Source of the DNA: an uncultured Victivallales bacterium
GTDB taxonomy: Bacteria; Verrucomicrobiota; Lentisphaeria; Oligosphaerales; JAFGRS01
Direction: 5' to 3'
DNA: 64,000 nt
NCBI GenBank assembly: GCA_903837355.1
Contig: CAILUI010000060.1
Location: forward strand, 26,304 to 90,303
Position 1 is the first letter of the stretch. Every line of letters starts with the position of its first letter. The translations under genes were made by a program, and so were the position numbers. This document shows positions 10,859 to 15,619 of the stretch, piece after piece. Under the pieces are notes generated by a model. It saw nothing but the letters and a program-made list of their open reading frames with translations. It ran no database searches and was not told the origin of the DNA.

Positions 10859-11463
10859 TTTCGCGAAAACACCGCCGACTGGTTGGAACGCTGGCACGGG
10901 TGACCCACCGCATCCCGCCGAGATCGCCCGGTTGCATGGCCCCAGTTGGCAGCCTCGCAGCAGCAGCTTTCCCTTCCCCCCTTGACCTCCGCCGCCGTTT
11001 CGCGAAAGACTTGCCCACTGGCGCCCCCGTCATCGTTCGTCGTCTCCCGTCTTGCCTCGGCCGCGGTTTCGCGAAAGACCCCAGGCTGCCGAGCCAAGCA
11101 GGCCGGTCCAGCCGCGATGGACGGACAGAGATGGGCTTCGCGAAAGCAGCCCGCAGCCCGCGCCCGGTTCGGGAGTTTCGCGAGAACCTGCTGCTCCGCC
11201 GCGAGTATGCAGGTTTCGCGAAAGCGCGCCGCCGAGAACCGTTGAGACTCTACCGGTTTCGCGAAAGCGCCCCGCCGAGAACCGCCGCGAGTGTGCAAGT
11301 TTCGCGAAAGCGCTCCGCCGAGAACCGTTGAGACTCTACCGGTTTCGCGAAAGCGCGCCGCCGAGAACCGCCGCGAGTGTGCAGGTTTCGCGAAAGCGCC
11401 CTGTCTCGGGCTGATCGCGGTGTGCGGAGAAGCATCGTCTACATATGCTGTGGGTTTCGCGAA
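10859..11463. repeat. Palindromic repeat cluster 1: 11 copies of TTTCGCGAAA or one-step variants
   Basis: Copies start at 10859, 10998, 11067, 11137 (TTCGCGAA), 11176 (TTTCGCGAGA), 11214, 11257, 11300, 11343, 11386, 11455 (TTTCGCGAA); exact 43-bp period from 11214 to 11386. Confidence 0.95.
11212..11383 (+). repeat. Tandem 86-bp dimer x2, each made of two 43-bp units with alternating tails
   Basis: Units 11212-11254, 11255-11297, 11298-11340, 11341-11383; shared ggTTTCGCGAAAGCGCnCCGCCGAGAACCG core followed by TTGAGACTCTACC or CCGCGAGTGTGCA; 83/86 identity between dimers. Confidence 0.95.
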
Positions 11464-11587
11464 GGTCGAGTCCGGAACAAGCCTATCGGCCTGGCTTCCA
11501 TGGTGCCGGCGACAGGAGCGCGGCGCGGCATGCGTCCTGGCTGCCACCGACGGCGGGGCTGGACGCAACCGGCCAGGCGGCAGGACC

Positions 11588-12877
11588 TCAGCGTTCGGCC
11601 GCGCCGCCGGCGTGGGTGCCTCCAGGCGGGACAGGGCTAGCGGGGGTTGGCGGGACCGGTACGAAGGGAACGCGAGACCCCGGTGGCGCGGCGCGGCAGT
11701 GTGGGCCCGCGCGGCGCCGCCTGATCACCCCGTCCCGGCGCGCTCGTCGGACTGACGCGGGCAAAGCGGTTGGCGCGGAGCCCACTGCAGACTGTGGCTC
11801 CTGGCGGAGTGGGCCAGACGGAGAGAGGCTGCCAGGCGCAATGAACGTCTTGCTGACAGAGCCCTGGCCCAGGCGCCTGCGAGCGTGTCTGCCCGTGCCG
11901 GGCGGACACTGCGCCGATGCTGTTGGCCGCGCCGTGTCCTGAATGGGGACGCCGCGAGAGGGCTTCGACGGCCGAGTCCACACACAGGCTTTCCGCAGGC
12001 TGGTAAAGGTCGTTCCGGGCGTCAGGCCCGCCCGCGCCACGAGGCGCTGCAGCGCATTCTGCAGCGTGCGTGTGGTCACCGGCTGAAGCGCTCCGCACGG
12101 TGCCGAAGGAAAGAGGAAGTCTCCGGGTGAGTGGCTGTAGGCACATGCCGCCAGCACCGCAAGGCAGGAGGCGGGAATGGGGGTTGCCAACCTGCTTCCC
12201 CGAACCCTGACATACAGCAGGCTCTGCCGCAGGCGAACGTCACTCCAGCGCAACGCGACCATCTCTCCAGGACGCAAGCCGAGGTCGCACGCGAGCAGGA
12301 CCAGCAGCCTCTCTCGCGGGCTCTGAACGGCCGCGCGCAACGCTGCCACCGCGCCGGGACCCGCGGCGAGCACCGCGCGTGGCCGTGGCGGCAGGGGTAT
12401 CCCAGCGGTCACGTCCAGCCCCAGAGGGCGGTCGACAGTCGCGCGCAGCGCACAGATCGTGGTGCGCCGCAGTGCCAGGTGCCGGGGGTCGCCGCGGCCG
12501 CTGCTCGCGCCGGTTCCGGGAGCGGTGGCAGCAATGGCCGTCAGGAAGCCCAAGGCGTCCGGAGTGGCGGCAGCGTGTCGACCGGCCGTGCTGTTCCAGG
12601 CCGCAAACCGTGCCGCTATCTGGCGGTACCGGAGCGTCGTAGACGCTGCGTAGAGCCGCGGCAACGGCTCGCCGCGAGGTGTTGCCGTCGCCGCGGCCCC
12701 AACCGCTGCCCCCGGCTGACGACCACCCGCCTGCCCCCCCCAGTGCCGGGCCACCCAGCGTACGAGGCTGGCAGAGGCATCCCAGGTGGCCAGGGCCGCA
12801 TTGAACGCCAGAGCGGCGTGGCGCTCGGGCCGCCCCATACCCGATCCCAGAGACATCGAGGGTCCAAGGTTACTCAT
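11588..12877 (-). CDS. Degenerate tyrosine recombinase/integrase-like protein (possible pseudogene)
   Basis: SAM-like N-domain (YAASTTLRYRQIAARFAAWN), box I LACDLGLRPGEMVALRWSDV, box II TSLRKA (His absent), box III LGQGSVSKTFIAP (H->Q, Tyr->Ala); C-terminal tail after ~11820 is probably unselected. Confidence 0.65.
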   Translation of the reverse strand: MSNLGPSMSLGSGMGRPERHAALAFNAALATWDASASLVRWVARHWGGQAGGRQPGAAVGAAATATPRGEPLPRLYAASTTLRYRQIAARFAAWNSTAGRHAAATPDALGFLTAIAATAPGTGASSGRGDPRHLALRRTTICALRATVDRPLGLDVTAGIPLPPRPRAVLAAGPGAVAALRAAVQSPRERLLVLLACDLGLRPGEMVALRWSDVRLRQSLLYVRVRGSRLATPIPASCLAVLAACAYSHSPGDFLFPSAPCGALQPVTTRTLQNALQRLVARAGLTPGTTFTSLRKACVWTRPSKPSRGVPIQDTARPTASAQCPPGTGRHARRRLGQGSVSKTFIAPGSLSPSGPLRQEPQSAVGSAPTALPASVRRARRDGVIRRRRAGPHCRAAPPGSRVPFVPVPPTPASPVPPGGTHAGGAAER

Positions 12878-12901: not shown

Positions 12902-12939
12902 TTTATAATATTATAAACCGATTGGAGGGCTCGTGTCAA
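12902..12939 (-). promoter_or_regulatory. Consensus sigma70-type promoter TTGACA-N18-TATAAT upstream of the recombinase-like gene
   Basis: Minus strand: TTGACA (12939-12934), 18-bp spacer, TATAAT (12915-12910); the -10 lies in a 16-bp perfect palindrome TTTATAATATTATAAA (12902-12917); AGGA 5 nt before ATG 12877. Confidence 0.75.
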
Positions 12940-13059
12940 GCAGTCCCGGAACATTGGTGCGGAGGCCTGCGGGGAGCCGTAGCCGCTAGGGGTCCCCCAA
13001 TCCATCCCCCGGCAGGGTTGAAGGCGTCTTCGCGGCACGCCAAGAGGGGCCGCACTGTC

Positions 13060-13229
13060 TTCGCGGAAGCAAGCGACGAACGTCTACGCTTCACCAGCGG
13101 TTTCGCGAAGACACCAGCCATTCCGTGGGCCAAATGGCCTTTCGCGAAAGCAGCGCAAGGCATGCTTCCGCTCGGCACGGTTTCGCGAAGGCAGGCGCTG
13201 GGCGCGGGCGACGTGCGGTTTTCGCGAAA
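13060..13229. repeat. Palindromic repeat cluster 2: five TTTCGCGAAA-type sites
   Basis: 13060 TTCGCGGAA, 13101 TTTCGCGAA, 13140 TTTCGCGAAA, 13181 TTTCGCGAA, 13220 TTTCGCGAAA; spacings about 39-41 bp. Confidence 0.9.
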
Positions 13230-13299
13230 GCGGGGCGGACAACGTGGGGGGCGGCGTAGGCCCTGGCGGTTGGCGGTGCTACGATTGCGCTCTGCAAGA

Positions 13300-13738
13300 G
13301 CGCTCTGGCGGTTAGACATTCGGGCTGGCGGTCGACGGACGTGTCGTTCCAGACCTGGGGGTCGGCGATGCCGATCTGCTGCTTGTCGTCGCGGTGGTTG
13401 ACCTCGATCTGCCAGCGGTCGAAGTAGGCCTGCAGCAGGTCGTGGGCGGGCAGGTGGAGTTCGGGACGGTAGCAGGTCCCGCGGAAGCGGCTCAGGTCCA
13501 CGGATGTCTCCGCCAGATAGACCCCGTGCCCATGGCGCCTCTGCCAGTCCCCGGGCAACTGCCGCAGGGCCAGCCCCAGCGCATGGCTGGCCAGATGCGG
13601 GACCCGCCCCCAGGGAGGAATCGGGAAGCGCATGTTGTTGGCCACCTTGTGCAGGTTCTGAGTCAAGCCCTGCCGCACGGTTCCCCCCGCCCGAGATGCG
13701 CTCAGCCTCAAGTGTCCGAACGCCAGGGGGCTCTGCAA
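13300..13738 (-). pseudogene. Transposase remnant: DruA/DUF4338-like segment joined in frame to a DDE-transposase C-terminal-like segment
   Basis: NNMRFPIPPWGRVPHLASHALGLALRQLPGDWQRRHGHGVYLAETSVDLSRFRGTCYRP followed by LLQAYFDRWQIEVNHRDDKQQIGIADPQVWN; the frame then runs into palindromic cluster 2. Confidence 0.6.
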
Positions 13739-14764: not shown

Positions 14765-15619
14765 CTATGCCGAGCGGATAGCCAGGCAGACGCGCACGAC
14801 CTCGGACATCTCGCGCACATCGTGCACCCGCACGAGGTCGGCCCCCTGCAGGGCGCAGGCCGCGACCGCTCCGGCGGTACCCCAGACACGCTGCCGCGGA
14901 TCGGGCTGCCCCAGGACCTGCCCAATGAACGACTTGCGCGACGGCCCCATCAGCACGGGCCGTCCCAGCTCCCGGAGCCGTGCCACGCCAGCCAGCAGCG
15001 CCAGGCTCTGCTCCGCGGTTTTCGCGAAACCGATCCCGGGATCCAGCATGAAATGCTCCGGACTGAGGCCGGAACGGTGAACGGCATCCTCCAGGCGCTG
15101 CGCCAACTCGGTGCAGACGTCGGCCACCACGGCGGCGTACTGGGTCAGGGAGCGCATGGTGGCCGGCGTGCCGCGCAGGTGCATCAGGATACATCCGGCC
15201 GCGCTCTCGGCGAGCACGGCGGCCATGTCCGGGTCGGCCTGCAGGCCGGAGACGTCATTGACCACGTGCGCCCCGGCCGCCAGCGCCGCCCGCGCCGTCG
15301 CCGCCTTCATGGTATCGACGCTGATCAGCGCGTCGGTGCGCTGACGGAGTTCCCGGATGACCGGGACCACGCGTCGCATCTCCTCGGCAGCGGGCACTTC
15401 GGCCGCTCCCGGCCGCGTCGACTCGCCGCCGATGTCGAGCCAGGCCGCGCCCTGGGCCAGCAGTTCCAGGCCGTGCTGCACCGCCCGCTCGGTACTGGCG
15501 TGCTCGCCACCGTCCGAGAAGGAGTCGGGGGTGACGTTAAGAACGCCCATGATCAAACATTGACCGTCGCAGACCAACTCCCGGTCACCGAAACGGAAGA
15601 TCAGCGGTGTCCTCTGCAT
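14765..15619 (-). CDS. folP: Dihydropteroate synthase
   Basis: IMGVLNVTPDSFSDGG, GGESTRPGA, DPGIGFAKT, GPSRKSFIG; start set at ATG 15619. Confidence 0.93.
   Translation of the reverse strand: MQRTPLIFRFGDRELVCDGQCLIMGVLNVTPDSFSDGGEHASTERAVQHGLELLAQGAAWLDIGGESTRPGAAEVPAAEEMRRVVPVIRELRQRTDALISVDTMKAATARAALAAGAHVVNDVSGLQADPDMAAVLAESAAGCILMHLRGTPATMRSLTQYAAVVADVCTELAQRLEDAVHRSGLSPEHFMLDPGIGFAKTAEQSLALLAGVARLRELGRPVLMGPSRKSFIGQVLGQPDPRQRVWGTAGAVAACALQGADLVRVHDVREMSEVVRVCLAIRSA

Follow-up and report, generated by a model that had tools for sequence, protein, structure and literature searches.

Highly iterated palindromes of the HIP1 type are short GC-centred palindromes that are over-represented in one genome. 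In REP/BIME systems, a cognate RAYT gene is accompanied by flanking repeats, dispersed intergenic clusters, and hybrid arrays (PMC2817692), and the REP repeats carry a GTAG/GTGG or CGTC tetranucleotide tag at their end (PMC3733652, PMC2817692). MrpR (YopR) of phage SPbeta is a repressor of recombinase fold that has lost catalysis and binds a repeated intergenic element, SPBRE (PMC10516654). Here, we describe extragenic repeat arrays associated with a family of truncated tyrosine-recombinase-like genes; in the open-access literature that we searched, we found no description of a recombinase–repeat pair of this kind.

Repeat arrays on both sides of a recombinase-like gene

In the window (the whole stretch of DNA analysed, 64,000 nt), 16 sites lie within one mismatch of TTTCGCGAAA, as against 0.63 expected and a maximum of 4 in shuffles. 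Eleven of these are located at 10859–11464, four at 13101–13229, and one at 15020, and the features of the locus are as follows.

10859–11464, no strand: 3'-side repeat array, 11 sites, GKTTTCGCGAAARC or one-step variants
11214–11395, no strand: regular 43-bp sub-array, five sites, two linker types alternating
11588–12877, minus strand: tyrosine-recombinase-like gene, ORF of 429 aa, conserved part 11951–12877
12902–12917, no strand: AT-rich perfect palindrome TTTATAATATTATAAA, shortly 5' of the gene start
13101–13229, no strand: 5'-side repeat array, four sites, spacing 39/41/39

The recombinase-like gene is located between the two arrays. Successive sites of the 3'-side array are 139, 69, 69, 40, 38, 43, 43, 43, 43, and 69 bp apart, and decayed sites are also found near 13030 and 13060, by the 5'-side array. 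A preliminary description of this DNA had reported eleven TTTCGCGAAA-like copies within about 600 bp that hold no credible CDS, five of them consecutive and exactly 43 bp apart, and all of this was borne out: 11 sites are present, no credible gene covers 10859–11464, and the sub-array sites start at 11214, 11257, 11300, 11343, and 11386. The roughly 30-bp core that it assigned to all five copies is found in the first four, though the fifth diverges after GCGC. Moreover, since two linker types alternate, the true unit of the sub-array is an 86-bp dimer. The view that the array is neither coding nor CRISPR is likewise supported; we rejected a CRISPR array because linkers are near-identical or alternating within an array and no cas gene is present among the flanking genes. 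The palindrome TTTATAATATTATAAA, a near-copy of which is present in another contig (C27) of the same genome, is a candidate promoter or operator.

The remaining site in the window, a lone TTTCGCGAAA at 15020–15029, falls within the reading frame of folP (dihydropteroate synthase, DHPS) at a GIGFAKT stretch and is probably a coding coincidence. In addition, an ORF at 13091–13738 on the minus strand overlaps the 5'-side array, gives a weak partial match to DruA/DUF4338 (PF14236, 26.1 bits versus a cut-off of 27), resembles a decayed gene, and has a near-repeat, GCTCTGCAAGAG, close to both of its ends. This ORF was rejected as a partner of the arrays, given that the fragment scores below the cut-off and that no such match occurs among the tested genes flanking other arrays.

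A recombinase family that ends before the catalytic tyrosine

The product of the window gene gives a match to PF00589, the phage integrase family, with E 1.3e-11, and the matches of the associated gene are limited to PF00589, PF02899, PF13495, and phage integrases. The protein comprises a SAM-like core-binding domain followed by the beginning of the catalytic fold. A family profile aligns to the archaeal XerC-like recombinase XerA of known structure (4a8e, E 4e-17), with further matches to 5hxy and 2a3v. Here, the match to XerA ends at the HQLRH (H-x-x-R) box of the latter, for which the family reads T-x-L-R-K-A, and the conserved part of the window protein ends at T-S-L-R-K-A. So, while homology to the core-binding and catalytic domains of tyrosine recombinases is present, the catalytic set R..K..H-x-x-R..H/W..Y is incomplete: the LGH box and the catalytic tyrosine are absent in all 12 aligned members, the histidine of H-x-x-R is replaced, and Arg I and II are not conserved (Arg I is Met in genome G007, and Arg II is lost in the C225 copy of G014). 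A stop codon follows within about 8–12 residues past the conserved part in G006, G007, and G010. AlphaFold, run on the single window protein sequence, returned a pLDDT of 35.5, which is too low for use.

Across the family, dN/dS values of 0.16–0.60 indicate purifying selection, with 0.35–0.60 in G007, 0.16 in G010, and 0.32–0.45 among the copies in the genome of the window (G000), where the C-terminal tail past the conserved part is less constrained (about 0.65). As the tyrosine box is missing and catalytic residues have drifted under purifying selection, a non-catalytic role is the simplest reading for the family. No relatives of the protein were found among viral and plasmid sequences, and searching 388 genomes of the phylum with a single sequence recovered only G014 besides G000.

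At least five copies of the gene are present in G000. They are found on contigs C60 (the window), C76, C398, and C27, with C12 carrying a 5' start and C335 and C336 each a 3' half. The last 141 bp of C27 are identical to the first 141 bp of C335 and C336, and thus these three contigs hold pieces of one copy, or of similar copies, that the assembly has divided. Copies differ by about 20–25% at the DNA level, and their frames stay open. Every copy with an assembled 5' side (C60, C76, C398, C27, and C12, the last with only the gene start available) has an upstream array, which ends about 160–230 bp ahead of the start codon. A 3'-side array is found at C60, C76, C335, and C336, and is absent at C398.

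A clustered, extragenic repeat family across the genome

The G000 assembly amounts to 9.6 Mb in 466 contigs, with about 69% G+C (for the part read) and 8.3% contamination. By pattern search, it holds 228 copies of TTTCGCGAAA and 2 of the reversed control word, whereas Markov models of orders 0–5, trained on about 418 kb of fetched sequence with the arrays masked, predict 1.3–2.9; the other 47 genomes of the order have 0–26. The count and clustering check suggested in the preliminary description thus reveal a genome-wide family, most copies of which are in about 25 intergenic arrays (25 read, on 22 contigs). The site consensus is G(G/T)TTTCGCGAAA(G/A)C, or GKTTTCGCGAAARC, and between arrays conservation ends beyond about 14 bp. 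In fact, 192 of 196 array sites are extragenic, though 87% of the fetched DNA is coding, as judged by gene prediction with a purpose-written codon-usage script. Isolated TTTCGCGAAA sites, 18 of 22 of which are within genes, are probably background.

The period is regular inside each array and varies among arrays, with values of 32–34 (32 or 33–34), 36, 37–41, 43, and 48 bp, and steps are doubled where a middle site has decayed. Because of this variety, we rejected fixed helical phasing as a rule, and with it the earlier proposal that a 43-bp period places the sites on roughly one face of the helix. Otherwise, the earlier reading of a cooperative binding array fared better, as the arrays are still best understood as multi-site targets of a binding protein and a link to a recombinase does exist. 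The genes neighbouring the arrays are of unrelated housekeeping types, with no shared transposase. Divergent gaps make up 7 of 16 array-bearing gaps and 32 of 93 background gaps, which is no clear difference.

These observations bear on the idea of a helically phased operator or centromere-like array for a conventional DNA-binding protein (a repressor, or one of ParB type), beside which the recombinase-like gene would be incidental. Multi-site arrays of a dyad site are what such a protein would occupy, seven of the array-bearing gaps are divergent, and TTTC..GAAA may resemble ParB/Noc half-sites. We nonetheless consider the idea very unlikely, considering that spacings are out of helical phase across arrays, that gap orientation is not clearly off background, and that about 25 arrays stand by unrelated genes and repeatedly by the same gene family.

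Linkers are often near-identical within an array and mostly unrelated across arrays. Even so, 38 cross-array linker pairs reach at least 0.78, compared with 0 in shuffles. A 22-bp linker with both of its sites recurs at C196, C336, C342, and C351, and other linkers are common to C97 and C115 and to C394 and C395, in each case amid unrelated genes; a match between C81 and C407 may represent a single array split by assembly. Since such two-site units recur at unrelated loci, they would appear to have been moved or copied, with arrays then growing locally. A neutral satellite, in which a chance palindrome without function was tandemly duplicated in place, would by slippage also give linkers that are alike within arrays and mostly unlike between them. 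However, strong conservation of the 14-bp site extends across arrays with unlike linkers, the arrays go together with a single gene family, and parallel cases exist in four other genomes, so this explanation is already disfavoured and, to our minds, extremely improbable.

Relatives carry the gene with repeats of their own

The family is found in 5 of 198 genomes of the class, namely G000, G014, G007, G010, and G006, with at least two copies in each. Every one of these genomes has a distinct repeat of the same type in the flank of the gene. In G014, hairpins stand on either side of each of two gene copies and are spelled differently at the two (GTTCGCGAAAA... and GTGCGTGAAAAC...), these being GAGTTCGCGAAAA-loop-TTTTCGCGAACTC at C53 and TGTGCGTGAAAAC-loop-GTTTTCACGCACA at C225. 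In G007, inverted pairs of GTTTTCCGGACA and TGGCCGGAAAAC are upstream of 4/4 copies, with no repeats downstream in the sequence examined, and in G006 GTTTTCCGGACA is upstream of 2/2 copies, with flanking repeats again seen on the upstream side only. In G010, GTTTTCCTGACA is upstream of the C1739 copy and no upstream repeat is present at the 5'-degenerate C1079 copy; the C1191 copy, which meets a contig end, was left out of the upstream test. Altogether, cognate repeats occur directly upstream in 14 of 15 testable copies from the five genomes, and on both sides of the gene in G014 (2/2) and at C60 and C76 of G000.

As in G000, the flanking motifs are high in number genome-wide. There are 454 copies of GTTTTCRCGMAC in G014 (control 0), and 202, 59, and 31 copies of GTTTTCCKGACA in G007, G010, and G006 (controls 0, 2, and 2), respectively, while genomes without the gene are at background counts for both words. 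The highest GTTTTCCKGACA count without the gene is 10, versus a control of 0, in G044, a genome 86% complete in which the gene was not found and the word is slightly above background. Within the order, motif expansion is seen in 5/5 gene-bearing genomes and in 0/43 others, for which 1/C(48,5) is about 6e-7, a value that ignores relatedness among the five related genomes, comes from fragmented assemblies throughout, and is partly conditioned on the outcome, since the motifs were read from flanks in gene-bearing genomes. Absence from all relatives, which the preliminary description had named as an outcome that would refute its reading, holds for the exact word, yet relatives do have the system itself, under other cognate words.

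A GTTTTC half-site (GKTTTC in G000) is common to all versions, and so the perfect palindrome of the window, which had been regarded as the essential feature, is to judge from these spellings one form of an oriented site and not its essence; the sites of the sister genomes are oriented and non-palindromic, and the window site is oriented too (GKTTTCGCGAAARC). Hairpins are strong in G014, G007, and G010 and weak in G000, on which account a single-stranded hairpin was rejected as a common feature. Two side observations concern hairpins in this group. Three 169-bp tandem copies with a GTTTTCGCGAAC hairpin in each are found in G014 (C61; L146 4510–4874). A long hairpin, CTGGATT-TTCGCGAAGC...GCTTCGCGAA-AATCC, occurs twice in G008 (L149 6149, L150 156), which belongs to the same family and is without the gene; this hairpin is possibly a small mobile element.

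Pair spacing is 17–19 in G014, 26–28 in G007 and G010, and 32–48 in G000. Some inverted pairs in G014 are arranged as 11+7+11, like a tyrosine-recombinase core site, and such a layout is, by analogy, what a protein of tyrosine-recombinase descent should recognise. Active site-specific recombination, with the repeats as core-type sites and the truncated protein acting alone or together with a full-length recombinase, would draw on this layout, on the dif-like size of the G014 sites (two inverted 11–12-bp halves around 5–7 bp), on the descent of the protein, and on the presence of copies at several places. We regard it as quite unlikely, as the tyrosine box is missing in 12/12 members alongside the other losses in the catalytic set, the site geometry is as variable as the pair spacings show, and cassettes are absent.

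Outside this group, exact TTTCGCGAAA pairs gave 57 hits in 85,462 species genomes and 4 in viral contigs, in diverse contexts, and the truncated protein is encoded at none of these 57 + 4 loci. Therefore, the word TTTCGCGAAA itself was rejected as the conserved unit. Two Bacteroidota MAGs (Odoribacteraceae Pcl387_bin142 and Tannerellaceae Gsp477_bin92) have TTTCGCGAAA arrays of their own with a period of 41–42 bp (L024, L025, L038, L042, L068, L069), and the truncated recombinase gene is absent from the examined stretches around them. Planctomycetota Nc350_bin156 has, on four contigs (L029, L047, L055, L057), dispersed hairpin-like units, each with two TTTCGCGAAA spaced 34 bp apart, and an unrelated short array in Thermophilibacter mediterraneus (L023 2721–2821) consists of TTCGCGAA six times, every 20 bp.

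Proposed role of the protein and its sites

The intergenic alternating arrays, inverted pairs, and hairpins resemble BIMEs and REPINs (PMC2817692), and the same linkers are found at different loci. An ordinary REP/BIME system, where the repeats are generated and dispersed by a Y1 (HUH) RAYT encoded elsewhere, with the recombinase-like gene as a mere passenger or frequent neighbour, could account for both. It nevertheless seems unlikely to us, in that no Y1 transposase is present among the tested array-flanking genes, each recombinase-like subfamily has its own repeat spelling (even two within G014), and no GTAG/GTGG/CGTC tag is present in the site consensus of any of the five genomes (5/5).

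Instead, we favour, with a probability of about two-thirds, a REP/BIME-like system in which the arrays serve as extragenic platforms to which the recombinase-like protein, encoded between them, binds. The logic of REP/BIME and RAYT, taken together with the MrpR precedent, leads us to propose that the protein binds DNA in a sequence-specific manner, at dispersed platforms of multiple sites. It retains the DNA-embracing part of a tyrosine recombinase, which comprises the SAM-like core-binding domain together with the opening portion of the catalytic domain; as its catalytic tyrosine box is gone, it most likely binds DNA but does not cut it. The protein of each lineage would pair with an oriented site of about 12–14 bp with a conserved GTTTTC half (GKTTTCGCGAAARC in G000), and these sites occur as inverted pairs and tandem arrays, both beside the gene and at many intergenic places, as do E. 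coli REP/BIME elements. It probably controls its own gene and organises or regulates other loci, and would thus be an autoregulator or nucleoid-type organiser rather than a nuclease. Another enzyme would copy the units to new loci, with local amplification afterwards; their spread may have involved a full-length recombinase, a Y1 transposase, or repair-based copying. Counted against this binding-platform reading, the strong hairpins in G014, G007, and G010, but not in G000, fit a single-strand enzyme encoded elsewhere equally well. Further points against it are the missing repeats upstream of the C1079 copy of G010, on the 3' side of C398, and downstream of the G007 copies in the sequence examined.

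We see about as much for as against the further claim that this is a previously undescribed class of chromosomal repeat system, in which a tyrosine-recombinase-derived family without the tyrosine box co-diversifies with its own genome-wide extragenic arrays, as an independent counterpart of RAYT/REP with a different fold. If true, repeats long explained by the RAYT transposase alone would have a second, unrelated partner family, and genome-wide extragenic repeats could pair with a DNA-binding protein that has no obvious DNA-cutting activity. Moreover, the system would supply natural cognate protein–site pairs (at least four spellings) for distinguishing a selfish from a regulatory or an architectural role of such repeats, and the set of truncated recombinases would be useful for studying the transition from enzyme to DNA-binding protein. 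Annotation would take these genes for broken integrases.

Comparison with known systems

With XerA, XerC, XerD, and the integron integrases, the family shares the SAM-like N-terminal domain and the beginning of the catalytic domain, but it ends at the H-x-x-R box, with the histidine, LGH box, and tyrosine absent and Arg I and II not conserved. An integron was rejected, as linkers are mostly 22–38 bp without ORFs and the integrase is truncated. Unlike HIP1-type palindromes, the sites are clustered in intergenic arrays and linked to a gene family.

The likeness to REP, BIME, and REPIN elements lies in high-copy extragenic short repeats, inverted or alternating, many of them in regularly spaced clusters with mosaic linkers, and the likeness to REP/RAYT in a probable cognate gene with repeats of its own beside it, upstream in most copies and on both sides in some, with several subfamilies and hybrid arrays in one genome (PMC2817692). 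In contrast, the partner here is a protein of tyrosine-recombinase fold without the catalytic tyrosine, not a Y1/HUH transposase, and the common element is the GTTTTC half-site, with a hairpin that is weak in G000.

By analogy, MrpR would be the nearest functional precedent, being likewise a tyrosine-recombinase-fold protein without recombinase activity that is tied to a repeated intergenic element, although binding is predicted in the present case and PDB 8A0A (the MrpR comparison) is absent among the family-profile matches. While MrpR is full length, keeps a tyrosine, and acts as the repressor of a prophage, a single one in which it has about ten sites, the protein described here is truncated, multi-copy, and chromosome-wide, with tandem arrays.
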